The position numbers and the translations under genes were made by a program. Shown piece by piece: positions 31,594-48,595 of a stretch of 64,000 bases of DNA. The stretch is from Armatimonadota bacterium (GTDB lineage: Bacteria; Armatimonadota; Fimbriimonadia; Fimbriimonadales; Fimbriimonadaceae): positions 1 to 64,000 of the forward strand of contig JAIUNY010000015.1 of NCBI GenBank assembly GCA_020161505.1, given 5' to 3'. Positions within the stretch are counted from its first letter, which is position 1, and every line of letters begins with the position of its first letter. The notes under the pieces are model-generated. The model did no database searches and was not told the DNA's origin. It saw only the letters and a program-made list of their open reading frames with translations.

Positions 31594-32790
31594 ATGGGTC
31601 AACAACGCGCGGGGACGCGCAAGTGGTTCGGCAGCGCGCCGAAAAGTCGACGAGCGAAGGCCGTCGTGACGCGCACGCCCGTCAATGCTCTCGAAACGTC
31701 GCTCCAAGCAGCAGTTCGCACGGGAGACCACGTCGAAGGGCTTGCCGAAATTCTCCGGCTTGCCGTCGATGATCTGGGGCTTTCCGGCGGCTTTGCCCTC
31801 ATTCCAGATGAATTCGATTCGGGAACTCTCCTCGCCCAGTGCGCCTATTCTCCGGATGGAGAATTCCCCTTCCCGGAAGCGATTGCCGCCCATCATTCGG
31901 TCAGCGGTCAGGTGATCTCCACCCGGCAGCCCGTGATGGTCCGTGGAGGTGAATTCACCGAGGCCCAGCTCCAAGAGTTCGGTCACGGCGTTCTCGCTGT
32001 TTTAGGCGTGCCCTTGCTCGGACGATCTCCTCTGGCCTCATTTGATGAAGTTGCAGAGGTTGTTCATGGCACCCTCACCTTCATCAGTACAGATTCCGCA
32101 AATGCATTCGATCTGGAGTGCATCCGGCGCGCCGAGAGCTTTGCCCACATTTACAGCCTCACCTATGCTTCCCTGCGGTCGGAGCGATACCGACGCACCA
32201 CGCTGGTGGACTGCCTCGAGCAGATCTGCATCTATATCGAATCGAAGGATCGCTTCCGAGCCGGACACTCCAGCCGAACCGGACGGATTGCCACGGAGCT
32301 AGCCCAGGAGCTGGGCCTCGGTGCCAAAGCCATCGAAGAGCTCCGAATCGCCTGTACGGTCATGGATCTGGGATACATTTCGATCCCCGACACGATCTTG
32401 CAGAAGCCAGATCAACTCTCCGACTATGAGTTCCTGATGATGCGGATGCACCCGGTCGTCAGCTACGAACTCTGCCAGAAGCTGCAAATTCCGGACAACA
32501 TTCTCGCCCTCGTGCGTGGACACCACGAGCGACTGGATGGCTCGGGATATCCCGATCAACTCAGCAACAACGAGATCAGCCTTCAGTGTCGAATCCTCAC
32601 CGTGGCAGACGCCTACGACAGCATGCGCTGCCCGCGAGCCCACCGCGCCGGCCTGACGGAAGAAGAAGCGATGCGGCAACTTCTGCTCGATGCAGGCAGC
32701 CGATTTGATCCCGTGGTGGTGCAAACCCTTCGAACCTTGATTGAGAAGAAGCACTTCAGTCACCTCTACGACGACCTGTTGGCGGCATGA
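31594..32790 (+). CDS. HD-GYP domain protein with degenerate HD motif
   Basis: 398 residues. The N-terminal half (about 30-195) looks like a GAF-type sensory domain. The C-terminal half is an HD-GYP domain: H225 (AGHSSRTGRIA), H286 (RMHPVVSYEL), HHERLDGSGYP at 310-320 and VADAYDSM. At the central motif, where active proteins have H-D-I-G-K, this one has M257-D258-L-G-Y, so a metal-ligand His and the Lys are lost. HD-GYP enzymes hydrolyse cyclic-di-GMP; this one may only bind it or another partner. It ends 3 nt before pilM, as first gene of the pilus operon, suggesting control of pilus function. The start ATG follows AGGATAAGAGG. Confidence 0.9.
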   Translation: MGQQRAGTRKWFGSAPKSRRAKAVVTRTPVNALETSLQAAVRTGDHVEGLAEILRLAVDDLGLSGGFALIPDEFDSGTLLAQCAYSPDGEFPFPEAIAAHHSVSGQVISTRQPVMVRGGEFTEAQLQEFGHGVLAVLGVPLLGRSPLASFDEVAEVVHGTLTFISTDSANAFDLECIRRAESFAHIYSLTYASLRSERYRRTTLVDCLEQICIYIESKDRFRAGHSSRTGRIATELAQELGLGAKAIEELRIACTVMDLGYISIPDTILQKPDQLSDYEFLMMRMHPVVSYELCQKLQIPDNILALVRGHHERLDGSGYPDQLSNNEISLQCRILTVADAYDSMRCPRAHRAGLTEEEAMRQLLLDAGSRFDPVVVQTLRTLIEKKHFSHLYDDLLAA

Positions 32791-32793
32791 ATC

Positions 32794-33948
32794 ATGGGGA
32801 TGGCAAAGCAAGTTGGACTTGAATTTGGCAGTGGCCTGATTCGCCTTGTGGTGGTGGAGCACCAGCGATCGGGCGAACGCACGCTCGTGTCGGTAGACAC
32901 TTACTCTCTGCCCGAAGCCATCGACCGAGATGGTCGGATTGTGGACGAGAAAGTGGTGGTGCAGACGCTCAAGCAATGGGCTACTCAACGCAAAATGGTC
33001 GGCGCTTCGCTCGTTTTCGCGATTCCCAACGAGAACTGCCAAATCGCCTGGCTGAAGCTGCCGGATGTCAGCGGTTCGGAGCTGATCAGCGTCGCTCGGT
33101 ACAAGCTCAAGAAGCAATTTCCCCGGATGTCGGATCGTGCCGTCGTCGCGGTCGCCCAGCCGAACGGGCCCGAGCACGAATCGATTCTCATCGGTGCCGA
33201 ACGGAGCCTGGTGGACGAGCGCGCCAATCTGATTCTCAAGGCCGGGCTGCATCCCGTCGGAGCAGAATCGGAGGCTCAATCCATTCTGCGCGTCATCGAC
33301 GGACACCTCAAAGGCTCAGGATCGATCCCCGAGCAGGCCTCCGTGACCCTGGTCCATATTGGTCAGGAACGCACTCAGTTCATGGTGGTCAAGGAAGGCC
33401 GCCTCAACTTCATGCGCACCGTCAAGGTGGGGCATGAGCGGTTTGAGACTCTGGTTTCCAAGACGCTCGAGTGCTCGCGCGAAGAAGCCCAGGCGCACCT
33501 TTTCTCGCCCAACAGTTGGCTGCTCAACCGAAGGATGATCGCCTCAATGAACGAATCATTCGAGCCGATTGACGCCGAGGAGCCGATGGAGTCCCTCACG
33601 AAGGAATTTCGGCGACTCATTCACTATTTCCGCTCGATTCACCCGGACCGAAGCTACGCGGGAATCCTCGACCGCATGATCTTGCTTGGTCGAATCACCA
33701 CGCTGCGCGGCTTTGCACCGTCTTTGGCTGATTTGATCGGGGTGCGACTCGAGCTTTTGAATCCACTCGTGGGGCTTCAGATTGCGCTGGAATCCGATGG
33801 ATTCCTCTCGCTCCAACAGCAGTCATCGATGTACACCGTGGCTCTCGGCCTGGCTCAGAGCCCTTATGGACTTGTCCCGACCCAAGCCACCACCGAACCA
33901 CAGGAAGAAGAAACCAATGAGTATCTATGGACACGCCAAAGCGCATAA
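32794..33948 (+). CDS. pilM: Type IV pilus assembly protein PilM
   Basis: 384 residues. The start VGLEFGSGLIRLVVVEH is the phosphate-1 type loop of actin-like ATPases of the PilM/FtsA family. SLVFAIPNENCQIAWLKLPD, VTLVHIGQERTQFMVVKEGRLNFMRTVKVG (the phosphate-2 loop region) and EFRRLIHYFRSIHPDRSYAGILDRMILLGRITTLRG follow in the family order. PilM is a cytoplasmic ring protein that binds the N-terminal tail of PilN and links the inner-membrane alignment complex to the assembly motor. The C-terminus overlaps pilN by 32 bp and the HD-GYP gene lies 3 nt upstream, so translation is coupled. Confidence 0.92.
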   Translation: MGMAKQVGLEFGSGLIRLVVVEHQRSGERTLVSVDTYSLPEAIDRDGRIVDEKVVVQTLKQWATQRKMVGASLVFAIPNENCQIAWLKLPDVSGSELISVARYKLKKQFPRMSDRAVVAVAQPNGPEHESILIGAERSLVDERANLILKAGLHPVGAESEAQSILRVIDGHLKGSGSIPEQASVTLVHIGQERTQFMVVKEGRLNFMRTVKVGHERFETLVSKTLECSREEAQAHLFSPNSWLLNRRMIASMNESFEPIDAEEPMESLTKEFRRLIHYFRSIHPDRSYAGILDRMILLGRITTLRGFAPSLADLIGVRLELLNPLVGLQIALESDGFLSLQQQSSMYTVALGLAQSPYGLVPTQATTEPQEEETNEYLWTRQSA

Positions 33949-34513
33949 GCAGCACCTGGAAATTGCCGCCAATCTGCTGACCAGTTGGCACGATGAGCGC
34001 GAAAAAACGCGCGCCGCTGCCCGTAAGGAAATGGGCCAGGTGATCGGTGCCCTCGTGGTGGCTCTGGTCGCGTTTATCTTGCTCAGCATGATCGAAGGCG
34101 GGATGGATACCAAGCTCACCGCCGTGAAATCGGATCTGACGGAGAAGCAGAAGATCTTGAAGGGAGAAGTCGATACCGGCACACTTTCGGCGGACGACAA
34201 GGAAGCCAACCGGCTGCTCAGCAAGGCAACTGCCCAAAATTTCTCGATGCTCCAACAGTTAGGGGTCGCCTTGTCTCGATCAAATCGAGGCATGGCTCTG
34301 GATTCGATCCAGGTCGAAAAGGATGATGTCGGCGTGATTGTTCGAGGCGTAGCCGCAGCCGCAGATCTCACCACCGCCTACGAATACACCGCCGATCTCA
34401 CGGAAGATCAAGAGAACGCGCGGGCTTATTTGACCAATGTCGAACGTCAGCAACAGTGGGGGCCGGACGCGGTGAAGATGTCGTTTGAGCTCGTGCAGAG
34501 GAGCATGCTGTGA
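33917..34513 (+). CDS. pilN: PilN-like pilus alignment protein
   Basis: 198 residues from the ATG at 33917, preceded by AGGAAG inside the end of pilM. It has a cytoplasmic N-terminal tail (1-45), one transmembrane helix (about 46-62, VIGALVVALVAFILLSMI), a coiled-coil stretch (about 70-125) and a small ferredoxin-like periplasmic end. This is the PilN layout. The N-terminal tail is longer than the usual short PilM-binding motif and holds no clear INLLP sequence, so identity rests mainly on layout and position between pilM and the PilO-like gene. It overlaps the next gene by 4 bp. Confidence 0.8.
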   Translation: MSIYGHAKAHKQHLEIAANLLTSWHDEREKTRAAARKEMGQVIGALVVALVAFILLSMIEGGMDTKLTAVKSDLTEKQKILKGEVDTGTLSADDKEANRLLSKATAQNFSMLQQLGVALSRSNRGMALDSIQVEKDDVGVIVRGVAAAADLTTAYEYTADLTEDQENARAYLTNVERQQQWGPDAVKMSFELVQRSML

Positions 34514-35058
34514 AGCTCAGCCTCGCGGGTGCGCTCACCCCGAGCAAGCTGCTGATGATCGTCGCGGCCTTGTTCGCCTTTCTGGCTGCCGTTTCCGTAC
34601 CACGGGTGATCGGCAAGAACTCCGAGCTCGGCGGAACGAGTGCCCAGGCCAAGCAGCTTCAAGTCGAGATCGACGAGAAGTCCAAGATTGAACGTACAGC
34701 GGCATTCGAGCGCGGGGCCGAGCAGCCGCTTACCAAGACTGTGCGCGAACTCACACAGTCGGTCGCTGATATCGGAGCCGAGCGGAGCGTCTCGCTCGTC
34801 CAGCTCACTAACCAAGGAGGATCGACTCCCCTTGCGATGAAGAAAGGTGCCACCAGCCAAGATTGGGCGACCACACAGGTGGAGTTTGTCCTTGTTGGCA
34901 CCACCCCGGCGATTTACGCGACGCTCGATGCGATCAATGCCCGAGATTTCCCCCTTGAAATCGTGGGAATCGAGATGCGGGCGGCGACGAACGAGCGCGC
35001 GTCGCGCGGTCCCAGCGAAGCGACGATCCGCACAAAAGTGTATGCTCAAGCGGACTAA
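34510..35058 (+). CDS. pilO: PilO-like pilus alignment protein
   Basis: 182 residues from a GTG that overlaps the previous stop. One membrane helix lies near the N-terminus (about 13-32, KLLMIVAALFAFLAAVSV). A coiled-coil follows (about 45-95), then a ferredoxin-like fold (TTQVEFVLVGTTPAIYATLDAINARDFPLEIVGIEMRAA), the typical PilO/GspM periplasmic domain. PilO pairs with PilN to form the inner-membrane alignment complex that joins the secretin to the motor. The start ATG of the following gene is 3 nt downstream. Confidence 0.82.
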   Translation: MKLSLAGALTPSKLLMIVAALFAFLAAVSVPRVIGKNSELGGTSAQAKQLQVEIDEKSKIERTAAFERGAEQPLTKTVRELTQSVADIGAERSVSLVQLTNQGGSTPLAMKKGATSQDWATTQVEFVLVGTTPAIYATLDAINARDFPLEIVGIEMRAATNERASRGPSEATIRTKVYAQAD

Positions 35059-35061
35059 GTT

Positions 35062-36048
35062 ATGGAGACTAGACGACAGAAGTTTGTACTCGCTGGCCTC
35101 AGCGTAGGCGTCGTGGCACTCGCCGCGATCGCGTTTCTCGTCTCGCGACAGCTCGGCCCCGGTGCCGGAGCCGCTCCTGGCGATGAAAAGACCATCGTCG
35201 CCGACAACGCCGCTGGTCGCAAGCTCCCCGAACTGAATGGTGATCCTTTCGCGAACAGCCCGGGAGGCGCGAATCGGGCAGGTGGATCGGGCGGTCAGAC
35301 CGGTATGCCCGGCGGAATGCCAGGCATGGGCAGCGAAACGCCGCAGGGATTCAATCCTTCCAACTCAGGCAATCCCTCTGGTCAGAGTTTCAACCCTTCC
35401 AATCCTGGAGGGCTCCAGAGCAATCCGTTGCCGGGGAATCCCCAGGTAAACCAACCAGGAAGACGCCCGGGTAGGACTAATGACCCATCGCATCCGTCAC
35501 CTTTTGCAGGCAATTTTCCTGGGGGAAATCAAGACTCTCCCGTCCCTCCCTTCAACCCCGCAGGCACCGGAAATGCCGGATCAAGCGGAAGCGGCAATCA
35601 GGTGATCAGCCCACCGGCTCCGGAGCGCCCCACTTCTATGCTGCCACCAGATCCCAACGCTTTGAACAACCTTCCTCCGGTGAACTCGCCCGGATCAAAT
35701 TCCGGTTCAGGCACTGTATCTGGTGGAACCGCAACAGGTTCAGGGGCTACCGGTGGACCAGGCCAGAATTCTGGCTCAACTCCCCCGACATCCTACGACC
35801 CGAGTATTGCTCTCATCAACAATCCTCAAGCCGTTAAATCCAACACAATTTCTCTGAAAGCAATCGTGATTTCGGGTGAAGCCGTGGCCTACATGGACAT
35901 CGCGCGGCAGGGCGTTCGCACCTATCGAGTGGGCAGTGAAGTTGCCCCGAAAACCAAGATCGTTTCCATTACTGCAGATGAAGTGGTGATTAAGAAGGGT
36001 CAGAAATCGGTTACAATCTCCGTCGGCAAAGACGGAGCTTTACCGTGA
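35062..36048 (+). CDS. PilP/GspC-like pilus protein with long Pro/Gly/Asn linker
   Basis: 328 residues. A single membrane helix (about 10-30, LAGLSVGVVALAAIAFLV) is followed by a very long low-complexity segment (about 60-255) rich in Gly, Asn, Pro and Ser, with repeats of FNPSN and NPGG-type units. The C-terminal 65 residues form a compact beta domain (ISLKAIVISGEAVAYMDIARQGVRTYRVGSEVAPKTKIVSITADEVVIKKG), the arrangement of the PilP/GspC homology region that touches the secretin. Ordinary PilP is a lipoprotein of about 170 residues, so this is an enlarged form. Position between pilO and pilQ supports the role. It overlaps pilQ by 4 bp. Confidence 0.75.
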   Translation: METRRQKFVLAGLSVGVVALAAIAFLVSRQLGPGAGAAPGDEKTIVADNAAGRKLPELNGDPFANSPGGANRAGGSGGQTGMPGGMPGMGSETPQGFNPSNSGNPSGQSFNPSNPGGLQSNPLPGNPQVNQPGRRPGRTNDPSHPSPFAGNFPGGNQDSPVPPFNPAGTGNAGSSGSGNQVISPPAPERPTSMLPPDPNALNNLPPVNSPGSNSGSGTVSGGTATGSGATGGPGQNSGSTPPTSYDPSIALINNPQAVKSNTISLKAIVISGEAVAYMDIARQGVRTYRVGSEVAPKTKIVSITADEVVIKKGQKSVTISVGKDGALP

Positions 36049-37610
36049 CTCTTCTAGGATATGTGATTGCACAAATCCTAGTCCCTGAGGTCACCTCTCC
36101 GCCCGCAGTAGACCTGTTGGCACGGAGGCCGCTGGTTCAGGAAACTAGGACAAGGATTGTCGACCCGCGTGACGCCTTTCTCACCAAATCGGTGAACAAG
36201 GTAGCTGACGAACAGCGCGTTACGCCACGACCCATACCGATTGGGCAAAGACGTGCGTCGCTCAATGCATCAGATTGGGAACTCTCCCAAGCGCTGAGTG
36301 CTTTGAGCAAGCAGACCAACGTCAATATTGTTCTTGCCAGCAAGGACAACCCCAAAATCACCGTGCAACTGCGCGAGATGCCCCTCTTGGATATTTTGCG
36401 CGTCCTTGCCGCTGTCACAGGACTACGTTTTGTGCAAGCTGGGGAGTCGTACGTCGTCGCAACTGAGGAAGTCCTCAAGACCTCCTTCCCTCTCGAATAC
36501 GCCCTTCAATACCCGGCAGAGGATGCGAAAGCAATCGAGCCGAGTGTGGTCAAGCGATTCATCTGCTCGCATGTTTCGGCAAGCGAAGCCAGCCAAACTT
36601 TGGCCGCTTTGCTCCCGAAAGATTCGAGACTTCAGATCGCGGTCGCCCCTGCTCCTGGGATCCCAGGGATGGGTGGCGGAGGCGCAACCGGCGCAATTTC
36701 CGGCGGCTCTTCATCCGGCGGATCAAGTGCCGGGGGAACCGGCGGAGGCGGAGCAGGCCCGGAAACGGGCGGCAGCGCAACCGGTGGTGCCTCATCCAGT
36801 GGAGGAGGCGGAGTCCAAGTGGGCGGCGCATCCGGCGAAGGTCGAATGCTCGTCCTGCGCGGCCCCGAAGATGAGGTGAAAGAAGCCCTCACGCTCCTCA
36901 AAGAGATCGACGCAAAGCGGCCCCAGGTCGTGATTTCCGTCGAGATCGTGGACGTCAGCAAGGAACTCCTCAAAGAGTTGGGCCTCAGCTGGAGCTTCGC
37001 GAACACAACGCTGACGGAGCGCGCACCAAGCGGGATCGGGTTCGAAACCATCGACCGTTCTGCCTTCTCGGGAACCGGGATCATCAAGGCAGTTCAAACC
37101 GACGAAAAATCGCGCATCCTGGCTCGCCCGAGCCTTAGCGTGCTCGATGGACAGTCGGCTTACATTCTCATTGGCGACCGGATCAACTACCCGGTGGTCA
37201 TCGGTCTGAGCGATAACAACACCCCGGTGTTCGATATCAAGGAAGAGCGCGTGGGCGTTTACTTCCAGGTCGGAGCGAATGTGACCGAAGAGGGAGAAAT
37301 CGTGATGAATCTGTACCCACAAGTCAGTGCCATCACAGGATTCCTTCAGGTGAATGGTGCGAGCTATCCGCAAGTTTCGACGCGGGAAGCCAAGACGGTT
37401 CTTCGGGTGAAATCAGGGCAAACCATCGCAGTCGGCGGTCTGATTCGTGAAGAAGATATTGATCTTTGGGAGAAGGTTCCCTTGCTCGGAGACCTTCCGA
37501 TTCTGGGTGAACTGTTCAAGCGAAAGCGAACGACCAGAAATGGCTCTGAAGTAATGATCTTCATCACGCCGATAATCCTGGTAGATGAACCAGGATCGGG
37601 CGCTCAATGA
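36045..37610 (+). CDS. pilQ: Secretin PilQ / GspD family
   Basis: 521 residues from a GTG. A STN/N0-like domain (about 80-145, NIVLASKDNPKITVQLREMPLLDILRVLAAVTGLRFV) and an N1-type KH domain follow the start. The N1 domain is split by an unusual Gly/Ser-rich insert (about 205-262). The secretin core begins at RPQVVISVEIVDVSKELLKELGLSW and ends with GQTIAVGGLIREEDIDLWEKVPLLGDLPILGELFK and EVMIFITPIIL. It should form the outer-membrane pore through which pili pass. No strong signal peptide is visible at the N-terminus, and the true start may differ. The 3' end overlaps pilB by 26 bp. Confidence 0.93.
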   Translation: MTLLGYVIAQILVPEVTSPPAVDLLARRPLVQETRTRIVDPRDAFLTKSVNKVADEQRVTPRPIPIGQRRASLNASDWELSQALSALSKQTNVNIVLASKDNPKITVQLREMPLLDILRVLAAVTGLRFVQAGESYVVATEEVLKTSFPLEYALQYPAEDAKAIEPSVVKRFICSHVSASEASQTLAALLPKDSRLQIAVAPAPGIPGMGGGGATGAISGGSSSGGSSAGGTGGGGAGPETGGSATGGASSSGGGGVQVGGASGEGRMLVLRGPEDEVKEALTLLKEIDAKRPQVVISVEIVDVSKELLKELGLSWSFANTTLTERAPSGIGFETIDRSAFSGTGIIKAVQTDEKSRILARPSLSVLDGQSAYILIGDRINYPVVIGLSDNNTPVFDIKEERVGVYFQVGANVTEEGEIVMNLYPQVSAITGFLQVNGASYPQVSTREAKTVLRVKSGQTIAVGGLIREEDIDLWEKVPLLGDLPILGELFKRKRTTRNGSEVMIFITPIILVDEPGSGAQ

Positions 37611-39291
37611 TATCTTGGTAGACGAGGGGTACGTCACTCGTGACGTACTCCATACCGTTCTTGCCGGTCGAGCCGACACTCGCGAATCTGTCGTGGATGT
37701 GTTGGTGCGGCAAGGGGCAATTACGCCCCAACAAAAGCTGAAATGTATCGGCCTTCAAACTGGCATTCCCTTTGTGGATGTGCGCAGTATGGAGGTCGAT
37801 TCTCGTTCAGCCCGTCTCCTTCCGCAAAAAACGTGCGCCCGACTGAAGCTCCTGATCATCGAAGCCAGCGACACCTGCGCCACTGTCGCAATGTCCAACG
37901 CGCTTGATCTGGAGGCTATTGACGAAATCTCCCAAGACCTCAATCGAGATGTCGATCCGGTCTGGGCGCTGGAGCAAGACATCAGCGAGAAGATGGTCGA
38001 AGTTTTCGGGGCATTCAACGACCTCGAAGATTTGCTCGGCAACAACTCGGGTCTTGACGAAGACATCGAAGTCACGTCTGGAGAAGTCGAGGACAACGAC
38101 CATGTCATTGCCCTCGGCGAGGGCGGAGAAGGCAGCCCCGTTGTCCAGTTTGTCAACGGACTCTTCATCCGCGCCATTCGGATGCGCACCAGTGATATCC
38201 ACATCCAACCCGACTCGAAGGGCGTCAAGGTCAAATTCCGCATTGATGGTGTGCTCCGCGACATCATGGAGATCCCTAAGGATGTCCACCGCGCCGTCGT
38301 CAGCCGGATCAAAGTTCTCAGCGGGCTCGACATCGCTGAGCGGCGGGTACCGCAAGACGGACGATGCAGCCTGGTGAGCACCGAGGGTGAGTACGACTTC
38401 CGTGTCGCCACCTACCCGAGTGTCAATGGCGAGAAGGTCACGATCCGGGTGCTAGATAAATCGCGCGGCATTGTCCCCGTCGAGAAACTGGGTATTGAAT
38501 CAGACAGTGAAAAGCGGCTTCTCTGGGCGGCCGAGCAGTCTCAAGGACTTGTCCTGGTCACCGGCCCCACGGGTTCTGGAAAGACCACGACCCTCTACGC
38601 GCTTCTGCGCCATCTCAACGAAGGCGACCGCCAAATCATCACGATTGAGGATCCGGCGGAATACCAAATGGACGGCATCGTTCAGGCCAACGTGAATAAG
38701 GCAGCCGGAATGACCTTTGCTGCAGGCCTCCGTGCCATTCTCCGGGCTGACCCTGATGTGATTCTCGTTGGCGAATCCCGCGACCCTGAGACCGCAAAGA
38801 CTTCGATCGAAGCGGCACTCACCGGACACTTGGTTCTCACCAGTCTTCACAGCAACGACAGCGCCGCAGCGATCACCCGTTTGGTCGAAATGGGGGTCGA
38901 AGAGTTTCTGGTTGCCGCCAGCGTGACTTGCTCCGTTGCCCAGCGGCTGGTTCGATGCAACTGCCCGAACTGCAGCGAGCCCTATAAGCCGGATCCGGAA
39001 ATCCTAGAGCGTCTCCAACTCCCCAAAGACGGCCAGTACAAGAAGGGTGTCGGATGCGACACCTGCGGTGGAACGGGCTACAAGGGTCGGATGGGTGTCT
39101 ACGAAGTCCTCAGCGTCACCGGCACGATTCAGAAGATGATCCTCGCCGGCGAATCGAACGTCGCGATCCGCGACAAGGCCCGCGAACTTGGCATGAAGAC
39201 GCTGATCGATGACGCCGCCGCCAAGGCGGCTGCGGGTCTCACGACTGTGGAAGAGGTCGCGCGGGTCGTCGCGGCGGAGGATAGGAGCTAA
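37585..39291 (+). CDS. pilB: Type IV pilus assembly ATPase PilB
   Basis: 568 residues. An N-terminal MshEN-like half (about 5-65, ILVDEGYVTRDVLHTVL...ITPQQKLKCIGLQTGIPFV) is followed by the secretion ATPase core. VVQFVNGLFIRAIRMRTSDIHIQPD and FRIDGVLRDIMEIPK lie ahead of Walker A GPTGSGKT (327-334), then the Asp box ITIEDPAEYQ, Walker B ILRADPDVILVGESRD and the His box HLVLTSLHSND. A zinc-binding tetracysteine is present (C460, C463, C491, C494), which marks PilB/GspE assembly ATPases rather than PilT. It drives pilus extension from the cytoplasm. It is coupled to pilC by a one-base stop/start overlap. No pilT is in the window. Confidence 0.96.
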   Translation: MNQDRALNDILVDEGYVTRDVLHTVLAGRADTRESVVDVLVRQGAITPQQKLKCIGLQTGIPFVDVRSMEVDSRSARLLPQKTCARLKLLIIEASDTCATVAMSNALDLEAIDEISQDLNRDVDPVWALEQDISEKMVEVFGAFNDLEDLLGNNSGLDEDIEVTSGEVEDNDHVIALGEGGEGSPVVQFVNGLFIRAIRMRTSDIHIQPDSKGVKVKFRIDGVLRDIMEIPKDVHRAVVSRIKVLSGLDIAERRVPQDGRCSLVSTEGEYDFRVATYPSVNGEKVTIRVLDKSRGIVPVEKLGIESDSEKRLLWAAEQSQGLVLVTGPTGSGKTTTLYALLRHLNEGDRQIITIEDPAEYQMDGIVQANVNKAAGMTFAAGLRAILRADPDVILVGESRDPETAKTSIEAALTGHLVLTSLHSNDSAAAITRLVEMGVEEFLVAASVTCSVAQRLVRCNCPNCSEPYKPDPEILERLQLPKDGQYKKGVGCDTCGGTGYKGRMGVYEVLSVTGTIQKMILAGESNVAIRDKARELGMKTLIDDAAAKAAAGLTTVEEVARVVAAEDRS

Positions 39292-40520
39292 TGGTCAGCT
39301 TTCGCTACGAAGCACTCGATTCCAACGGCGCGAAAGTCTCAGGCGAGCTCAAAGCCAGCGATCTCCACACTGCTGAGTCTCGCCTCGAGGAACGCCACCT
39401 TGTCCCCCTTTACGTGGTGGAAGCGAGCGCAGCCAGCGCGAAAGGGATCAAGCCTCTCCCCGCTCCTCGCAGCAATCGCAAGCTCAAAGCAAGCATCGAC
39501 GAAATCAACGACCTCCTCCGCTCGATGCAGGTCATGGTCAAGGCGGGGGTTCCCATCGTCGAGGCCTTGAACACCATCACCGAGCACGCGAGCTCGCCCA
39601 CGATGAAGATCATCGCGAACAACCTCAAAACGGACATGCTTGAGGGTCTTTCGTTCGATCAAGCCATGCGCAAGCACCCACTCGTCTTCCCGGACATTGT
39701 GTGCGAAATGCTCGCCGCTGCCGACGAAGGCGGACAGTTGGCAAAGGCTCTCGGCGGGGCGATCAACTACATGGAGCAACGAGCCCAGACCAAGAAGGCG
39801 GTCACGGGGGCGCTGGTTTATCCCGTGATGCTCTTGAGCATCTGTATCGGCACGTTTCTGATGTTCCTCGTCTTCATATTGCCGACCTTCGGCAAGACCT
39901 TTGAAGGTCTCCAGGTGAAACTCCCCGCGACGACAACCTTTCTGCTCGCCCTGGGCGGATTTCTGCAGAAGAACTTCGGCATGGTTTTCCTCGGAACCAT
40001 CGCCGGGATCGTTGGCCTGAAATTCCTGCTGAAGGTGCCGAGTGTGGCAACCAAGGTGAACGCGGGCCTCTACAGCGCCCCGATTTTCGGCAAGGTGATG
40101 CAACAAATGGCCATGGCGCGAACCATGCAAACCATGGGTTCCTTGACCGCAACGAACATCCCGATCATCCGCGCCATCCAGTTCTCCGGCAAGGTTTCGG
40201 GCTACCCCAAACTTCGTACCGCAATGGAGGTCGTGGAAGACCGAGTTCAAAACGGTGATTCCGTGGCCGAAGCCATGCAGAAAAGCAAGATCTTCAACCC
40301 GATGACCATCCAACTGGTGAGCGTCGGCGAAAAGAGCGGTCAGCTCGCAGATCTGCTCACCACGAGCGCCGAGCAGCTGCACGGCGTCGCCGAGCGCAAG
40401 CTCAAAGCGGCTCTGTCCCTGCTCGAGCCGCTTCTCATCTTGTTCATGGGTCTGGTGGTGGGCTTGCTCACGCTCTCGATCCTCCTGCCTCTGTTCACGC
40501 TCAACCAGAGCATCAAGTAA
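39291..40520 (+). CDS. pilC: Type IV pilus inner-membrane platform protein PilC
   Basis: 409 residues. After an N-terminal FRYEALDSNGAKVSGEL segment typical of PilC/GspF come two copies of the T2SSF helical domain (about 75-195 and 275-400: LLRSMQVMVKAGVPIVEALNTI, and MARTMQTMGSLTATNIPIIRAIQ). Membrane helices lie at about 172-195, 222-245 and 378-402. PilC is the inner-membrane platform turned by PilB to feed pilins into the growing fibre. It is full length and lies in the operon between pilB and a pseudopilin gene that starts 2 nt later. Confidence 0.96.
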   Translation: MVSFRYEALDSNGAKVSGELKASDLHTAESRLEERHLVPLYVVEASAASAKGIKPLPAPRSNRKLKASIDEINDLLRSMQVMVKAGVPIVEALNTITEHASSPTMKIIANNLKTDMLEGLSFDQAMRKHPLVFPDIVCEMLAAADEGGQLAKALGGAINYMEQRAQTKKAVTGALVYPVMLLSICIGTFLMFLVFILPTFGKTFEGLQVKLPATTTFLLALGGFLQKNFGMVFLGTIAGIVGLKFLLKVPSVATKVNAGLYSAPIFGKVMQQMAMARTMQTMGSLTATNIPIIRAIQFSGKVSGYPKLRTAMEVVEDRVQNGDSVAEAMQKSKIFNPMTIQLVSVGEKSGQLADLLTTSAEQLHGVAERKLKAALSLLEPLLILFMGLVVGLLTLSILLPLFTLNQSIK

Positions 40521-40522
40521 TC

Positions 40523-40969
40523 ATGCGAACTTCTCGAACTCGAAACAAGGGCTTCACGCTCGCGGAGATGATGACGGCGGTCGGAATCATGGCCGTGCTG
40601 ACCGCCATGGCCACTCCCTCATTCGTGAATTCGTTCCAGCGCAGCCGCGAAAATGCCTTGAAAAGCGATTTGGCCGTGGTGCGTAGCTCCGTTCAGATGT
40701 TCTTCACGGATACGGGAGCGTTTCCGAACTCTCTTGCCGATCTCACCGTGACCACCGCACCGGGCACGGGGCGATCTCGGTCGGGAGCGAGCGTGAACAT
40801 CGACTTCCGAGACTGGCGAGGCCCGTACCTGGCGACTTTGCCCAGCGATCCGATCTCTGGAAATGCCTTCACCTACTACCCCAGCCCCTCAGGGGCATTC
40901 CGTGCGGGAGCCGTGACGTCGTCGATGAGTGGTAATGATTCATCGGGAGTTGCATTTTCCACGTATTAA
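40523..40969 (+). CDS. Prepilin-type pseudopilin (GspG/PilE-like)
   Basis: 148 residues. A basic leader ending KG is followed by FTLAEMMTAVGIMAVLTAMATPSFV, a classical prepilin cleavage site and hydrophobic helix with Glu at +5. The soluble part continues with SRENALKSDLAVVRSSVQMFFTDTGAFPNSLADL and DWRGPYLATLPSDPISGNAFTYYPSPSG, a GspG-like pattern of a helix, a small beta sheet and a loop region. It may be a minor pilin or a type II secretion-like pseudopilin. It is the only pilin-type gene in the operon, and the major pilin of this system is probably encoded elsewhere. Confidence 0.92.
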   Translation: MRTSRTRNKGFTLAEMMTAVGIMAVLTAMATPSFVNSFQRSRENALKSDLAVVRSSVQMFFTDTGAFPNSLADLTVTTAPGTGRSRSGASVNIDFRDWRGPYLATLPSDPISGNAFTYYPSPSGAFRAGAVTSSMSGNDSSGVAFSTY

Positions 40970-41015
40970 CGCGGTTTCGTTTCGGACACAACTAACCGTT
41001 TGAGTAAGGAGAACT

Positions 41016-41894
41016 ATGTCGGGATCCATGGAATTCGATGAACTGCTGCATTTGTTTGGCTCGGCGAGCTCGCTGCCCCAGTTACCGAAGTCGCCGCTGC
41101 GGCTCTCCGAGCTCCTCGACAAACCCGACGCGAGCCAAAACGAAATCGAGCAGTTGATCCACTCCGATCCTGCCCTCACGGCTGGGATTCTGCGTGCCGC
41201 CTCGTCCGCTCTGTTTGGGCGAGCAAAGCCCGTCACGACCGTACGAGAAGCCGTCATGCTGCTCGGGTTTCGTTCGATGCGTTCGCTTGCCGTCGCCCTG
41301 TGGACAAGTGCTCTGGTGAGCGAATCCACTCACCGATCTCAGCTGGATACCGATCGCTTTGCTCGGAACGGCAACTTTGTCGGGGCTCTTGCAAGCCAGC
41401 TCTACCGCCGACGATTCTCCGGAGGATCGGGAGGGCGGTGGAGTCACGAGGAGATCTTTGCGGCTGGGGTCTTGCACAATGTGCTCTTCGGCCTGCTTTC
41501 CTACGTTGCCCCCAAAGAGTTCGATCGACTTTACGCCATGGGCAAGGACAAGGAGATTGGCCTGACCCAAGCCTTTCTGATGGTGCATGGCCGAGACATT
41601 AGCGACCTTGCTCCTCGGGCTTCGGAAGCCCTTGGACTCCCCGATGTCTTCATCGAAACCGTGATGGGAATCGACGACCCAACCGGCACCCTTGAGCTTC
41701 GAATCCCGCTCATCCACCTCAACTTTGCTCGGGGCATCGCCGAGGAGCGAGGAATGGGGCTCGTGCCTTGGGCGTTGCCTTGGGCGCCAAGCGAAGAAGT
41801 CGCGGATGTCATGGCCCTGGAAGATGAGATCCTTGAGGAGTGCATTGGCGAAGCACGCAAGCTTCTGATTCTCAGCGGAATCCGGTCAGCCTAG
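41016..41894 (+). CDS. HDOD domain protein
   Basis: 292 residues, start ATG preceded by TAAGGAG. Residues about 15-215 form an HDOD domain (a relative of HD domains usually lacking full metal sites): LPQLPKSPLRLSELLDKPDASQNEIEQLIHSDPALTAGILRAASSALFGRAKPVTTVREAVMLLGFRSMRSLAVALW is diagnostic. The domain is common in bacterial signalling proteins tied to motility, biofilm and cyclic-di-GMP control. No other domain is seen. It closes the pilus operon 46 nt behind the pseudopilin gene and ends in a strong terminator, so it is probably co-transcribed with it. Confidence 0.93.
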   Translation: MSGSMEFDELLHLFGSASSLPQLPKSPLRLSELLDKPDASQNEIEQLIHSDPALTAGILRAASSALFGRAKPVTTVREAVMLLGFRSMRSLAVALWTSALVSESTHRSQLDTDRFARNGNFVGALASQLYRRRFSGGSGGRWSHEEIFAAGVLHNVLFGLLSYVAPKEFDRLYAMGKDKEIGLTQAFLMVHGRDISDLAPRASEALGLPDVFIETVMGIDDPTGTLELRIPLIHLNFARGIAEERGMGLVPWALPWAPSEEVADVMALEDEILEECIGEARKLLILSGIRSA

Positions 41895-44900: not shown

Positions 44901-44991
44901 CTCTTGGCTGTGCCACGCTTGCAAGCGAGGCCCCCAGCAAGGAAAAGGCAATCAAGGAACGCCAGCTTAGGCGCACATTCAACTTGGGCAT
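41971..44991 (-). CDS. Secreted subtilisin-like (S8) protease with dockerin
   Basis: 1006 residues. A signal peptide (SLIAFSLLGASLASVAQ) and an inhibitor-like propeptide (about 45-115) precede the S8 domain. The catalytic triad is D178 in VAVCDDGVD, H235 in SHGTHVAG and S391 in SGTSMATPHASG. A fibronectin-like region (about 450-560), two related beta-sandwich domains each with WTDSPAGNY or WADSPTGSY and YDFLYIE or YDYLNIE motifs (about 565-840), and a C-terminal dockerin with two calcium loops (DVNGDNKVDGSDLD, DVNGDGQVNNLDLR) follow. An extracellular peptidase is likely. The Asp motif is DDG, as in kexins, instead of the usual D-T/S-G. Its paralog lies directly upstream. Confidence 0.95.
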   Translation of the reverse strand: MPKLNVRLSWRSLIAFSLLGASLASVAQPRDLDFTTLRTDPFKLPPKTIYSKTHVVVAFHPTARESVKKSVMGRLALSEDTKMSSRYFSVLHLSPDAIKMGQTVEQVVRQLNSNPAVRYAEFDTLLEPDYVPNDARFSEMWALNNTGQTGGTADADIDAVQAWDVTGVHAQEVVAVCDDGVDLAHPDLDGNIWNNSDEIAGNGIDDDGNGFVDDFRGWDFADGDNNPSPAGTDSHGTHVAGTIGAEINNGIGVAGVGRNLRIMPLRIYGGANPWMSALANAVDYARQNGASVISVSYNIDGYTTALVDAIQRAKADDVIYCNSAGNNNQANPPRQAIRSVADNVVFIAASDHNDQKSSFSNYGTLVEVFLPGEDILSTLPGNTYGLNSGTSMATPHASGMLGVIRAMYPTATARQALDRLIALGDSVPALSSYVANGKRANLLNAMDNDTVAPGAITGLTAERRAFTVLELSMTIPGDDGMVGPVDGFDVRVSPTPITDANFAAARPVLASVPSAAPGTRVRFRVNGIWPGDASYVAVRAKDNVGNVSPTAFFGPLATRGGAWGDRVESTNQFTGDVTWATTTAQQYSGSRSWTDSPAGNYGNNASTSLVMNTPVVVNGPVAFKFQAKVDLESNYDFLYIEVQKNGGAWQTLTRLTGARDWTQYGATLDAVNGDSMRVRFRMTSDGSVVRDGVYLDDFVMVPVTPVFSDSFEGTNNFSAQTPWAKVADAFSPVTAWADSPTGSYAANANTALTGTNTIDLRGIADPALLMQAKYDLETNYDYLNIEQSADGGSTWTRASALNGTQTAWGSVSLNLLNQEFTRVRFRLTSDGTAQRDGVTMDDVRIVGEPWEDKKVATGTVGLERFVGTPASLPGTLEILHPTTNAVLESHPLPLTNTGISTQGTFSFGTFLDGTVNLRIKVKGYLSNRITGVNLVNGLSGLNVVLKIGDVNGDNKVDGSDLDLIKTSFGLAPSDPRFNPNADVNGDGQVNNLDLRWTRLNVGLQGN

Positions 44992-45156: not shown

Positions 45157-46971
45157 TTAGTAGGTGATGCTCAGCTTGATGTGGTCGGTCAGAACATCGA
45201 ACGTCGTGCTGACGCCTCGTCGCTCCGCACCGAGAACCATCACACGAGCTCGGATGGATCCATTCGATCCAACATAGTTCGGAGCGGTCTGTCGACCCAC
45301 AAGGCCGCCAAACTGGATGTCTTCCGTGCTTGCTCGGGTCGATCCGAGCAGATCCCAGTTGCCGGTGACCACGTTGTACAGATAGATGTACTGAGTCAGC
45401 TGGCGACGGGTGACCTTCATCTCGGTATCGAGCTTGATCCGCTTGACCATGGAGGCCGCCACCGGAGAAGCCACTGCGACTTCGTAAGTCACATAGTTTC
45501 CTCGGCGAGCGAGAGAGGACGCGCGCATTCCCATGTGCGTATCATCGCTACTCATGATCTGAGCCAGTCCTCCGCCGAGCACCGTACCCATCACCGGGGT
45601 GACGGACAGGAGATCCGGGGACACCGTGATCGAGGTGGCGTTAGCGAAGTTCATGCGGCGATTGCCCGGAATGAATCCACTCAGGTTATCAACCGAGTCG
45701 GCGTTATCGATCAACCGATCGAGGACTTCGCGTGCGGATTCGGAAGGATTTGATCCCCGAAGCGTTGCAACGACGCCCGCCACCATGGGGGTGGACATCG
45801 AAGTGCCGCTCGAGAGCTGGTAGTCGTTTTGCGTGTACGTCGAGAGAATGTCTTCACCCGGCGCAGCGATCTCGATGCGGCTACCAAAGTTCGAGAACCA
45901 AGAGAGGTTATCGTTTCGATCCGTTGCGGCGACAAAGATCAGGTTGTCGTGTGCATCGCGCAGGGCGGAGCGCGGCGGTTCGCCTTCTCCGTTGTTTCCG
46001 GCCGAGCCGCAGTAGACGACGTCAGCGGCTCCTGCTCGTCCGATTGCATCGCTCAAGGACTGCGTGAACCCATCGAGGTTATAGCTGACGCTGATGACGT
46101 CGGCACCATTTTGCCAAGCGTAGTCGACCGCATTGGTGAGAGCCGACATAAAGGGCGCTGGGCCACCGTACATTCGGAGGGCCATGATCTTCACATTCGG
46201 ACCAGCTCCGGCCACGCCAATTCCGTTGTCAAAGGTAGCGGCGACAGAGCCCGCCACGTGCGTTCCGTGAGAGTCACTGGGAAAATCGGGCATTGGATCG
46301 TTGTCGCTGCTCGAGAAATCCCATCCGTGCTTGTCGTCGATGAAGCCATTCCCGTCATCGTCGATGCCGTTCGTCGGGTTCTCGTTGGGATTCACCCACA
46401 TGCTGTCAGCGAGGTCTTCGTGGGTGTATTCCACGCCATCGTCGCAGACGGCAACGACCGTCTCGTCGGCCGTCAGCACGTTGTCCCAGGCTTCCACGGC
46501 GTCAACGTCGGCATCATCGACGCCTCCGCCTTGGCCGGTGTTGTGAAGGCCCCATTGCTCGCCGAAACGAGGATCGTTCGGTGTGAATTCAGGAACCAGG
46601 ACGGGATCCAGCTCAGCGTACATCACAGCCGGGTGGCTCGCAAGGGAGCGATTCAGTGAGTGAACCGTCATCCCCATCGCCCGACTTCGTGGCGAAATCG
46701 TGAGTACCGAGTGGTACTTGCCCGAGAGAATCGGATTGACCGAAAGGCCATACCGCTTCAAAACATCGAGTTTGGTCGCGTTCGTAGTGTTCGGACGGAA
46801 AGTGACGACCACGTGATCAAGGGCATACTCCCCCTTCACCACCGGCGGCCGCGTCAGTTGCGAGCCCATCGGGCTCGGCTGGGACGGAACCTGCGCGAGA
46901 GCCAGAGAAGTGACAGCAACAAAAGCTGTGACCCCCATCGCTCGGCAGAGGCGATTCATTCGGTACTTCAT
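45157..46971 (-). CDS. Secreted subtilisin-like (S8) protease
   Basis: 604 residues from the ATG at 46971, preceded by GGAGAT; the frame is open 16 codons upstream. A signal peptide (VTAFVAVTSLALA), a propeptide (about 45-110) and an S8 domain with D177 (VAVCDDGVE), H235 (SHGTHVAG) and S391 (SGTSMSTPMVAG) are present. The triad has the same spacing as in the 41971-44991 protein, and both share GNGIDDDGNGFIDD-like calcium-loop sequence, so they are paralogs. The C-terminal 170 residues are a beta domain without dockerin. The two genes are tandem, with a terminator between. Confidence 0.95.
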   Translation of the reverse strand: MKYRMNRLCRAMGVTAFVAVTSLALAQVPSQPSPMGSQLTRPPVVKGEYALDHVVVTFRPNTTNATKLDVLKRYGLSVNPILSGKYHSVLTISPRSRAMGMTVHSLNRSLASHPAVMYAELDPVLVPEFTPNDPRFGEQWGLHNTGQGGGVDDADVDAVEAWDNVLTADETVVAVCDDGVEYTHEDLADSMWVNPNENPTNGIDDDGNGFIDDKHGWDFSSSDNDPMPDFPSDSHGTHVAGSVAATFDNGIGVAGAGPNVKIMALRMYGGPAPFMSALTNAVDYAWQNGADVISVSYNLDGFTQSLSDAIGRAGAADVVYCGSAGNNGEGEPPRSALRDAHDNLIFVAATDRNDNLSWFSNFGSRIEIAAPGEDILSTYTQNDYQLSSGTSMSTPMVAGVVATLRGSNPSESAREVLDRLIDNADSVDNLSGFIPGNRRMNFANATSITVSPDLLSVTPVMGTVLGGGLAQIMSSDDTHMGMRASSLARRGNYVTYEVAVASPVAASMVKRIKLDTEMKVTRRQLTQYIYLYNVVTGNWDLLGSTRASTEDIQFGGLVGRQTAPNYVGSNGSIRARVMVLGAERRGVSTTFDVLTDHIKLSITY

Positions 46972-47171
46972 GAAGGTATCTCCACGCCTGAAACTGGCAA
47001 GGTAAGTAAAGTATAGCAAAAGGATTGCCAGAAGGTTCGCAATTATTCCAAAGTGTAATAAAAACAGCCGCTAAACACCGGTTTTCCGTCGCATTTCTGT
47101 AAGGATCAATCTCTCAGCCGCCGACAATTGCAGCAGGAACCCTCGTGAAATTGCGAGGCACAGAGATTTTT

Positions 47172-47780
47172 ATGAGTCGATACCAACGTGTCGGAGACTG
47201 GCTGATCGAGCGCGGCATCATCTCCGCCGAGCAGTGCTCCCATGCTCTCGAGGTTCACCGAACAACCGGGGGACGATTTGGCGAAGTCCTGATCTCTTTG
47301 GGCTATTGTTCCGAGCAGCAAGTGGTCGAGTGCTTGGCTCAGCAGTACGATATTCCCGTCTGCGACCTGGCCAACGTGAAGCCAAGTGAGGCAGCACTCA
47401 AGCTGGTTTCGCCCACGTTCGCTCTTTCCCGGCTCATCCTGCCGATTTCGGTCACGCAAACCGAGTTCCACTGTGCTCTGTGCGATCCCCTCGATATCCA
47501 AGGGACCGACTACCTGACCAGAGCCTTGAACAAGCGGCTCGTGATCTCGCTCGCCGGGCATCAACAGATTTTCGAGGCGATTGCCAAGCATTACGCCCTC
47601 CCGACCGCCAAGAAACAGTCTCCGATCCTTGTGGAAACCGCGACTGAGAAGAAAAAGACTAAGCGATCTACAAAGCCGAGGGCGGCGGGCAAGGTCGATG
47701 AGCAGCCCGATCGACGCGAACTCCTCCTCGCCATCGCAGGCGGCGGACAAGACTCTTTGTGGGATGCCTACCAGGACTAA
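47172..47780 (+). CDS. Stand-alone MshEN-type domain protein
   Basis: About 202 residues from the ATG at 47172 (a GTG at 47145 with AGGA upstream is an alternative). Residues about 4-70 form the two-part MshEN motif: RVGDWLIERGIISAEQCSHALEVHRTTGGRFGEVLISLGYCSEQQVVECLAQQYDIPV. A GspE N-terminal-like domain follows (to about 140), then a basic Lys/Thr/Arg stretch and an acidic tail. MshEN domains bind cyclic-di-GMP in many pilus and secretion ATPases; here the domain has no ATPase core. The gene lies 4 nt before a MinD-like ATPase gene, so the two products likely work together, perhaps on pilus placement or motor control. That is inference. Confidence 0.8.
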   Translation: MSRYQRVGDWLIERGIISAEQCSHALEVHRTTGGRFGEVLISLGYCSEQQVVECLAQQYDIPVCDLANVKPSEAALKLVSPTFALSRLILPISVTQTEFHCALCDPLDIQGTDYLTRALNKRLVISLAGHQQIFEAIAKHYALPTAKKQSPILVETATEKKKTKRSTKPRAAGKVDEQPDRRELLLAIAGGGQDSLWDAYQD

Positions 47781-47784
47781 ATCT

Positions 47785-48543
47785 ATGTTGACGATTGCGA
47801 TTACGAGCGGAAAAGGCGGGGTTGGCAAGACCACCTTCGCCGCAAATCTGGCGGCAGCCCTCCAAGAAACCGGCGAACAGACGACGGTTTTTGATGCGGA
47901 CTTGCAGCTCGCCAACCTCGACATCGTGCTCGGCATCGCGCCGACTCATAACCTCCAGCACGTTGTCTCGGGAGAAAAGACTCTGCGTGAAATCGCGACA
48001 ACTGGCCCCGGCGGCCTAACCGCGATCACAGGCGCCTCCGCTGTGCCGATGCTGATGCGGGCCGGCCCGAAGAAGCTCGGCCTCTTCATGGAGCAAATCG
48101 CCCAGCTGGACGCCGAAACCGACATTTTAGTCTTCGATACTGCGGCGGGACTGGATCAGCGCGTGATGACCTTCATGAAGCTCGCCCAAGAGGTGATCGT
48201 GGTCGTCTCGCCCGATCCGACGAGCATCACCGATGCCTACGCGACGGTCAAGACTCTGTTCCGGAAAGATCCCGGAGCCCGCGTCAAGGTCGTGTTCAAC
48301 ATGGCGAATCCGGTGGAGGCGCGACGACTGTTCGAGAGCTTCGAGAAGATCGTTTGGTCTTATTTGAAGAAGCATGTCGACTTTCTCGGTTCGGTTCGGC
48401 ACGATATGGAAGCAGCCAGAGCAACGCGAAAGCGTCAGCTCTTCGTGGTTGAGAACCCGACGTGCGGTGCCGCGCAAGATATCCGAGCGATCGCCCAAGA
48501 AGTCCGCAACTGGAAAGACATCACAATGCTCCGCGCCGGCTAA
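47785..48543 (+). CDS. MinD/FlhG-like ParA-family ATPase
   Basis: 252 residues. The deviant Walker A GKGGVGKTT lies at 9-17, followed by FDADLQLANLDIVLGI (A' region), LVFDTAAGLDQRVMTFMKLAQEVIVVVSPDP (B motif and switch) and KVVFNMANP. This layout fits FlhG/FleN/MinD-type proteins, which place flagella, pili or the division ring. No obvious amphipathic membrane-targeting helix is visible at the C-terminus (VRNWKDITMLRAG). It is coupled to the upstream MshEN gene (4-nt gap) and followed by a terminator. No flagellar genes are seen in the window, so a link to the pilus system about 7 kb away is possible. Confidence 0.92.
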   Translation: MLTIAITSGKGGVGKTTFAANLAAALQETGEQTTVFDADLQLANLDIVLGIAPTHNLQHVVSGEKTLREIATTGPGGLTAITGASAVPMLMRAGPKKLGLFMEQIAQLDAETDILVFDTAAGLDQRVMTFMKLAQEVIVVVSPDPTSITDAYATVKTLFRKDPGARVKVVFNMANPVEARRLFESFEKIVWSYLKKHVDFLGSVRHDMEAARATRKRQLFVVENPTCGAAQDIRAIAQEVRNWKDITMLRAG

Positions 48544-48565: not shown

Positions 48566-48595
48566 GCCCAGGAGTTCACTCTCCTGGGCTTTTTT
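48566..48595 (+). terminator. Terminator after the MinD-like gene
   Basis: GCCCAGGAG (48566-48574) pairs with CTCCTGGGC (48581-48589) across a 6-nt loop, followed by six T. Confidence 0.95.

Follow-up and report, generated by a model that had tools for sequence, protein, structure and literature searches.

A conserved gene pair of an MshEN-domain protein and a MinD/FlhG-type ATPase as a candidate c-di-GMP-gated positioning switch in the Fimbriimonadales

We analyzed a 64,000 nucleotide (nt) stretch of DNA, hereafter the window, from an Armatimonadota bacterium (GenBank assembly GCA_020161505.1, contig JAIUNY010000015.1, positions 1 to 64,000), and examined two adjacent genes in it that encode an MshEN-domain protein (P0001) and a MinD/FlhG-type ATPase (P0002). 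An initial annotation of the window had described an MshEN gene followed 4 nt later by a gene for a MinD-like ATPase. Both genes are present, with the P0001 stop codon ending at 47780 and the P0002 ATG at 47785, leaving the gap of 4 nt. For P0001, the ATG at 47172 was preferred over the GTG at 47145, since the orthologues in two other loci (L039 and L042) likewise begin five residues before the first motif. The gene pair and the adjoining subtilase gene start divergently. The features of the pair are listed here (c-di-GMP, cyclic-di-GMP; aa, amino acids).

47172..47780, forward strand: MshEN protein P0001, 202 aa, predicted c-di-GMP sensor and ATPase partner (PF05157, NF053729)
47187..47258, forward strand: predicted c-di-GMP motif I, residues 6-29 of P0001, RVGDWLIERGIISAEQCSHALEVH, departing from MshE at positions L25 (C) and Q32 (H)
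47274..47345, forward strand: predicted c-di-GMP motif II, residues 35-58 of P0001, RFGEVLISLGYCSEQQVVECLAQQ, exactly 5 residues after motif I
47346..47603, forward strand: MshEN C-terminal subdomain, residues 59-144 of P0001 (PF05157 match)
47604..47708, forward strand: basic linker, residues 145-179 of P0001, probably flexible (sequence, low-confidence model)
47709..47726, forward strand: conserved C-terminal motif DRRELL, residues 180-185 of P0001, proposed ATPase contact (motif count, low-confidence helix in the model)
47785..48543, forward strand: MinD/FlhG-type ATPase P0002, 252 aa (ParA/CbiA-type models, FleN structures)
47809..47832, forward strand: deviant Walker A motif GKGGVGKT, residues 9-16 of P0002 (sequence, conservation)
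48566..48589, forward strand: terminator-like hairpin 3´ of the ATPase gene, a weak prediction (the region has one, against 2.2 expected from shuffles)

Conservation of the pair was assessed in 101 genomes from the order, with a P0002 match of at least 188 bits taken as an orthologue. Matches at E ≤ 1e-20 were found in 49 of these genomes, 44 of which reached 188 bits. All but one of 30 returned loci (L009-L038) have a P0001-like open reading frame (ORF) upstream, in L028 only a partial one; the exception, L035, has just 231 bases of contig ahead of the P0002 match. In a wider set of 41 context loci (the window and L039-L078), an MshEN gene lies immediately before the ATPase gene in 33, with raw gaps of -10 to +36 nt, and the fraction rises to 33 of 36 when only orthologous loci with context are counted, the remaining five of the eight loci without the pair being of the paralogue type (L073-L077). 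Identity to P0002 ranges from 40 to 70% among 18 aligned relatives. In a tree of 142 ATPases, built by a quick method, the orthologues split in two: a group of 21 rows whose partners are short (support 93; L070 is partnerless) and one of 15 rows (support 87) comprising 12 with long partners, L068 with a short partner, and L069 and L071 without MshEN. No FlhF-linked row falls inside either group, though the deeper grouping is weak (61). Conservation of the pair had been proposed as a check in the initial annotation, and the pairing exceeds chance both among the orthologous loci and in the first P0002 loci. The two genes form a conserved module.

P0001 matches PF05157 with 57.1 bits (cut-off 23.1) over residues 59-144 and NF053729, a model of the MshE-related c-di-GMP motif, with 64.3 bits (cut-off 38) over residues 6-58; its closest solved relatives are PilF (6f8l) and MshE (5htl). 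The available text of PMC5013675 describes the MshE motif as two 24-residue halves separated by a 5-residue spacer. This exact 24-5-24 spacing is found in 33 of 33 partner proteins, all of which also match NF053729 at E ≤ 1e-3. In MshE numbering, Gly11, Arg38, Gly40 and Gln61 are each kept in all 33 partners, Leu58 in 32, Leu29 in 30, Arg or Lys at position 9 in 30, and Gln at position 32 in 23. In motif II of P0001, the equivalents of Arg38, Gly40, Leu58 and Gln61 are intact, with a C at position 49, and a core set of seven motif positions, chosen by us, holds in 30 of the 33 partners, P0001 among them. XpsE is listed in the same available text as a non-binder with broken motif positions (PMC5013675); at those positions P0001 retains G11, I19, L29, R38, G40, V54, L58 and Q61 in a by-eye comparison. 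The genome that contains the window (G000) encodes eight MshEN matches above the cut-off. When our own tandem-motif rule was applied to six of them, only P0001 and a PilB-like protein on contig C11 passed; the latter (L005, G000:C11), an ATPase, is extended at its N-terminus by a long stretch and carries the tandem c-di-GMP motif with exact spacing. Ten GGDEF domains score over the cut-off in this genome, and thus c-di-GMP probably is made. Judged by its sequence, P0001 has the architecture of an MshE-type c-di-GMP receptor, in agreement with the MshEN domain named at the outset, and likely binds c-di-GMP itself.

P0002 matches ParA/CbiA-type Pfam families, and the GKGGVGK portion of its Walker A motif is invariant across 19 aligned ATPases. 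Among solved structures, FleN was the best match (168-172 bits), followed by 4rz2 (118 bits), listed as a 'site-determining protein' and which we take to be FlhG, and the septum MinD 3q9l (54.6 bits). The top NCBIfam score, 137.3 bits, was to the archaeal-type MinD and is below the cut-off of 201.75. By these matches P0002 belongs to the MinD/FlhG positioning group, and the MinD/FlhG-like ATPase of the initial annotation stands, with FleN at 172 bits as its best solved relative. Two other identities were considered and rejected on their scores: a canonical cell-division MinD (TIGR01968, 85.1 bits, cut-off 212.9, which no protein of the genome exceeds) and a split EpsG-type tyrosine kinase (TIGR03029, 22.4 and 33.1 bits, cut-off 313.8). 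The score to the model for CpaE/TadZ-type pilus-placing ATPases (TIGR03815, the CpaE homologue model) was also below the cut-off, at 37.3 bits against 154.45.

An N-terminal DQAxxLR helix of FlhG stimulates FlhF, according to the available text of PMC12826062. Searched as [DN][QKR][AL]xxLR, such a helix was found in none of the 36 orthologous ATPases, of which three have no MshEN partner, and in none of five other ATPases linked to MshEN, compared with 48 of 81 FlhF-linked and 5 of 20 unlinked ATPases. FlhF itself was not found over the cut-off in the window genome, where the best match was 75.6 bits against a cut-off of 174.15; matches below the cut-off are expected from other signal recognition particle (SRP)-type GTPases. 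Among the 101 genomes of the order, FlhF is over the cut-off in 18: one of the 44 genomes that have the ATPase, and 17 of the 57 that lack it (Fisher p 0.0002, uncorrected for kinship).

The MshEN partners share a second conserved element at their C-terminal ends. The pattern [DE][RKT]xxL[LI], picked after the sequences had been inspected, occurs within the last 60 residues of 32 of the 33 partners, with 0.54 expected from shuffles; the exception is L047. R181 of the motif is nearly invariant, both short and long forms of the partner carry the motif, and the protein upstream of the ATPase in L071 has no MshEN match, yet ends in the tail motif. The basic tail of the initial annotation is recovered as a lysine/arginine-rich segment. 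In one single-sequence AlphaFold2 model of P0001, with a mean predicted local distance difference test (pLDDT) score of 48.8, four N-terminal helices were predicted at usable confidence, and the reliable part spans only about 50 residues from the N-terminus (means of 77-92 in blocks of ten residues). Residues 141-180 have no secondary structure in the model and a pLDDT under 50, and a helix is present at 181-190, also with a pLDDT below 50, like nearly everything after residue 60. We infer that the partners use the tail motif to contact the ATPase.

Lengths measured from likely starts divide the 33 partners into 21 short (177-214 aa) and 12 long forms (411-448 aa), and thus the description of a stand-alone MshEN protein applies to P0001 and the other short forms, whereas the long forms carry a degenerate kinase region and a hydrophobic-basic tail in addition. 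The Ser/Thr-kinase-like region gave PF00069 scores of 53.5 bits in L064 (over the cut-off) and 20.3 bits in L060 (below it) and no match in L053; a PASTA-kinase model is matched by 11 of the 33 partners, and a profile built from all 33 matches PknE/PknB structures. We call the kinase region degenerate because the canonical HRD-K catalytic motif, searched with our own pattern, was found in none of the 12 long partners. The hydrophobic-basic tail, which resembles a membrane-targeting helix, is present in 12 of 12 long and 0 of 21 short partners, by a pattern chosen after the tails had been viewed.

The association of MshEN with this type of ATPase also recurs outside the orthologous loci. The window genome encodes three MinD/FlhG-type ATPases at E ≤ 1e-20, each with an MshEN-type stretch. 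On contig C17 (L076, 7705-10717), the gene for the second FlhG-type ATPase is preceded by one for an acidic, low-complexity protein of 722 aa that has just the C-terminal half of MshEN; these two genes are flanked upstream by a MoxR-DUF58-VWA gene group and downstream by a chemotaxis receptor gene. On contig C14 (L075, 13792-15033), the C-terminal MshEN half is fused in frame to a MinD-type ATPase, and in L074 (9238-11877) two ATPases of the L075 group lie in tandem. In a genome from elsewhere in the same phylum (G208; L088, 8876-12165), a 714-aa MshEN-protein kinase protein is encoded 240 nt after an FlhG-type ATPase, which groups with the FlhF-linked FlhG of the same genome (support 98). This was the only locus with an MshEN match among 20 context loci from the rest of the phylum. 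In three other loci of the phylum (L085, L086 and L091), an FlhG-type ATPase gene lies directly before a glycogen synthase-like gene, as judged by eye from the first 150 residues.

A scan of named genomes that used only P0002 as the query turned up no relative, but 23 pattern matches. The same scan with alignment A1 returned relatives of which the best 80 of 584 have 32-41% identity. MshEN proteins are encoded in 2 of these 80 loci, directly before the ATPase on a Desulfobacteraceae contig (L156) and as a PilB about 2 kb away in L123. An FlhF-type gene is found in the fetched locus of 73 of the 80, by a profile from four FlhF sequences that is not fully specific and hits a 293-aa protein in L067. 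Given the paralogues in the window genome and the G208 case, the MshEN-ATPase association probably formed more than once, although it is rare outside the order.

Upstream of the pair lies a further group of genes that bears on its possible target.

31594..41894, forward strand: type IV pilus/type II secretion-like operon, identified by family matches and syntenic with the pair in some relatives

The operon encodes an HD-GYP-like protein, PilM, two ORFs, a GspC-like protein, a secretin, a GspE/PilB-like ATPase, GspF, a pseudopilin and an HDOD protein; the two ORFs, in the place of PilN/PilO, have no family match over the cut-off. The pair starts 5.3 kb past the last gene of the operon and 6.2 kb past the pseudopilin gene; the initial annotation had placed the pilus operon about 7 kb away. 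The HD-GYP-type protein at the operon head (31594-32790, forward strand) keeps the GYP motif (LDGSGYP), while its catalytic HD pair reads MD; this protein may be a degenerate phosphodiesterase. The GspE/PilB-like ATPase (37585-39291, forward strand) has an MshEN domain in which the first half of the c-di-GMP motif is degenerate, lacking the Arg/Gly residues, and its NF053729 score of 24.2 bits is below the cut-off. No c-di-GMP motif was found in the GspE proteins of the window, G047, G051 and G038. Two subtilase genes on the reverse strand (41971-44991 and 45157-47019) lie between the operon and the pair, and a related subtilase is found at the same place in L042-L044.

Within the genus, the gene order is gspDEFG-HDOD-S8-MshEN-MinD in G047 and G051 and HDOD-S8-MshEN-MinD in G044. 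An HDOD gene lies directly ahead of the pair in G034, G056 and G013. In G053, from another genus, the order is gspEFGGG-HDOD-MshEN-MinD, and in G038 the ATPase gene comes before GspE and HDOD. A secretin of the window type (at least 498 bits) was found only in G000, G047, G051 and G053 among the 101 genomes; the secretin was the only operon gene searched genome-wide, and G098 is a fragmented draft. Neighbors were also tallied in 148 of 154 ORFs from a crude gene caller, with ORFs over 900 aa excluded. These gave 180 Pfam families, the commonest in 5 of the 148 proteins and DivIVA and RuvB in 3 each, and the 25 commonest include neither flagellar nor pilus families. In five long-form loci from three bacterial families (L056, L059, L060, L061 and L066), a DivIVA-like gene, assigned by BLAST cluster, is convergent to the pair, with Pfam matches in L059, L060 and L061.

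Taken together, we suggest, with a probability of roughly 0.5, that the pair is a c-di-GMP-gated, FlhG-type positioning switch in which the MshEN protein stands where FlhF usually does. P0002 would be an FlhG-family ATPase with the MinD fold, expected to form an ATP-dependent dimer and no longer working with FlhF, and P0001 its partner, an MshE-type c-di-GMP receptor. c-di-GMP would bind the four-helix MshEN_N bundle, and this would change the way in which the flexible basic tail and its conserved DR-x-x-LL element engage the ATPase dimer. Tail binding would then set where or when the dimer acts, so that a surface machine would be placed or assembled in response to c-di-GMP. The nearest candidate target in the genus would be the adjacent type IV pilus/type II secretion-like system; the c-di-GMP motif is missing from the ATPase of that system itself. 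At the level of sequence, the pair and its conservation, the family assignments, the tail motif, the missing FlhF-stimulating helix and the lack of an FlhF above the cut-off are the firm parts of this model, and c-di-GMP binding by P0001, physical contact through the tail and a positioning output are what we infer from them. Within the switch model, contact between P0001 and P0002 is the most secure of these steps because of the conserved pairing and the tail motif, and the target (pilus, flagellum or pole) is the step of which we are least sure. A broader proposal, which we offer tentatively, is that an FlhG-family ATPase swapped its SRP-GTPase partner FlhF for a c-di-GMP receptor, giving a positioning switch under direct control of the messenger. 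The lineage would have two versions of it, one a pseudokinase form anchored in the membrane and found near DivIVA, the other a soluble module of two genes tied to a pilus/secretion machine, and the pairing would have arisen more than once.

Several observations weigh against the switch model or its components. Three orthologues (L069, L070 and L071) have no MshEN partner, and the pair has no constant neighbor outside the genus. The pilus link of the initial annotation is supported by synteny in G047, G051, G053 and G038 but is not exclusive: in five of eight genus members the pair is kept and no window-type secretin is found, outside the genus a Gsp-type match of any kind lies in the fetched stretch of just 6 of the 29 orthologous context loci (L052, L053, L054, L070, L072 and L078), and DivIVA lies beside five long-form loci. 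With regard to FlhF, 33 of the 81 FlhF-linked ATPases also lack the DQAxxLR-like helix by the same pattern, and the anticorrelation across genomes is confounded by kinship because all 17 FlhF genomes without the ATPase are in family f2. A hydrophobic-moment test for membrane helices of the ATPases failed to discriminate between the groups, as even the final helix within the ATPase domain passed it, and by eye P0002 lacks the tail that follows this domain in most members of the long-form clade.

Two alternatives overlap with the switch model and differ from it in the target. The pair might govern flagellar number or placement, with P0002 as the FlhG of this lineage, the MshEN protein replacing FlhF (or FleQ as the c-di-GMP input) and the pilus operon a mere neighbor, which we regard as unlikely. 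The initial annotation noted no flagellar genes around the pair, and none was found near it, but the genome does encode FlhA (G000:C29:74833-76803) and four flagellin matches, which makes a flagellar role possible and, with no FlhF above the cut-off, fits such a replacement. The missing flagellar neighbors say little here, since a scan of 10 ORFs around FlhA likewise turned up no flagellar family. FleN as the closest solved relative of P0002 and the FlhF-type gene in the loci of most of the best 80 of 584 named-genome relatives also favor flagella, as does the presence of FlhA (E ≤ 1e-3) in 42 of the 44 genomes that carry the ATPase, compared with 44 of the 57 that do not (Fisher p 0.011, uncorrected for kinship). 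These last 44 genomes, which have FlhA and no ATPase, count against a flagellar function, and also against the switch model, while two drafts about 96% complete (G078 and G084) have the ATPase and no FlhA match. The absence of the FlhF-stimulating helix, the lack of flagellar families among the commonest neighbors and the operon link in the genus, which points to pilus/secretion genes, likewise argue against it. The other alternative, a general cell-pole or growth-zone module in which the pair and DivIVA set polarity and pili or flagella are indirect outputs, strikes us as the least probable of the explanations considered; the long MshEN-pseudokinase protein with its membrane-type tail may then be the older form. 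It draws on the DivIVA-like genes convergent to the pair in three families, on the hydrophobic-basic tail confined to long partners (by the post hoc pattern), and on the binding of B. subtilis FlhG dimers to GpsB described in the available text of PMC12327844 and PMC12826062; a title in the reference list of PMC12327844 provides a lead to DivIVA-GpsB kinship. The DivIVA cluster is, however, present in only 5 of 41 context loci and at no short-form locus, L056 and L066 belong to it by BLAST clustering alone, and shared descent may explain the adjacency.

A third explanation concerns the sensor rather than the target. The MshEN protein may have lost c-di-GMP binding and persist as a relic, a former PilB-type N-terminus whose only role is to scaffold the ATPase. 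Just 11 of the 33 partners satisfy the relaxed pattern of PMC5013675 in both halves, and P0001 fails it in both halves owing to C25, H32 and C49, observations that also weigh against the switch model. The exact spacing, the core positions held in P0001 and most partners, the NF053729 match in every partner and the eight residues that P0001 keeps at the positions broken in the non-binder XpsE (in the available text of PMC5013675) speak for retained binding, and we consider a relic improbable, a shade more so than control of flagella.

Among the literature matches listed, we found no description of a pair of MshEN and a MinD/FlhG-type ATPase, a search combining 'MinD-like ATPase' with type IV pili, c-di-GMP and positioning found nothing, and the terms 'MinD', 'ParA' and 'FleN' do not occur in the available main text of PMC5013675. 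That text does mention MshEN-Ser/Thr kinase proteins, which the long-form partners resemble in combining MshEN with a kinase-like region, whereas the long forms lack the canonical catalytic motif and their gene is paired with that of a MinD/FlhG-type ATPase. EpsG (TIGR03029) offers another likeness, as positions 4-63 of the model match P0001 and positions 106-260 match P0002, but both scores are far below the cut-off and the two parts are separate genes here. P0001 is like MshE (5htl) in its tandem 24-residue motifs, 5-residue spacer and MshEN_C subdomain; unlike MshE, it is not fused to a secretion ATPase but is a free protein with a basic tail and DR-x-x-LL element, with departures in the motif and with a MinD/FlhG-type ATPase as its conserved neighbor. 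P0002 in turn shares with FlhG/FleN (5j1j, 4rz2) the MinD-type ATPase with a deviant Walker A motif and differs in lacking the DQAxxLR-like helix, in occurring in a genome without FlhF above the cut-off and in having MshEN as its neighbor. If the switch model is correct, the pair would be an example of how FlhG-type ATPases can swap partners. c-di-GMP is known to reach the placement of surface machines mainly by transcription (FleQ-FleN) or through messenger-binding motors (MshE, PilB, PilF), and a conserved pair that joins a receptor for c-di-GMP to a MinD/FlhG-type ATPase would add a third route, a direct one. In Pseudomonas, the FlhG-family ATPase FleN reportedly also has a c-di-GMP-responsive partner, the transcription regulator FleQ, but MshEN is another kind of domain than FleQ.

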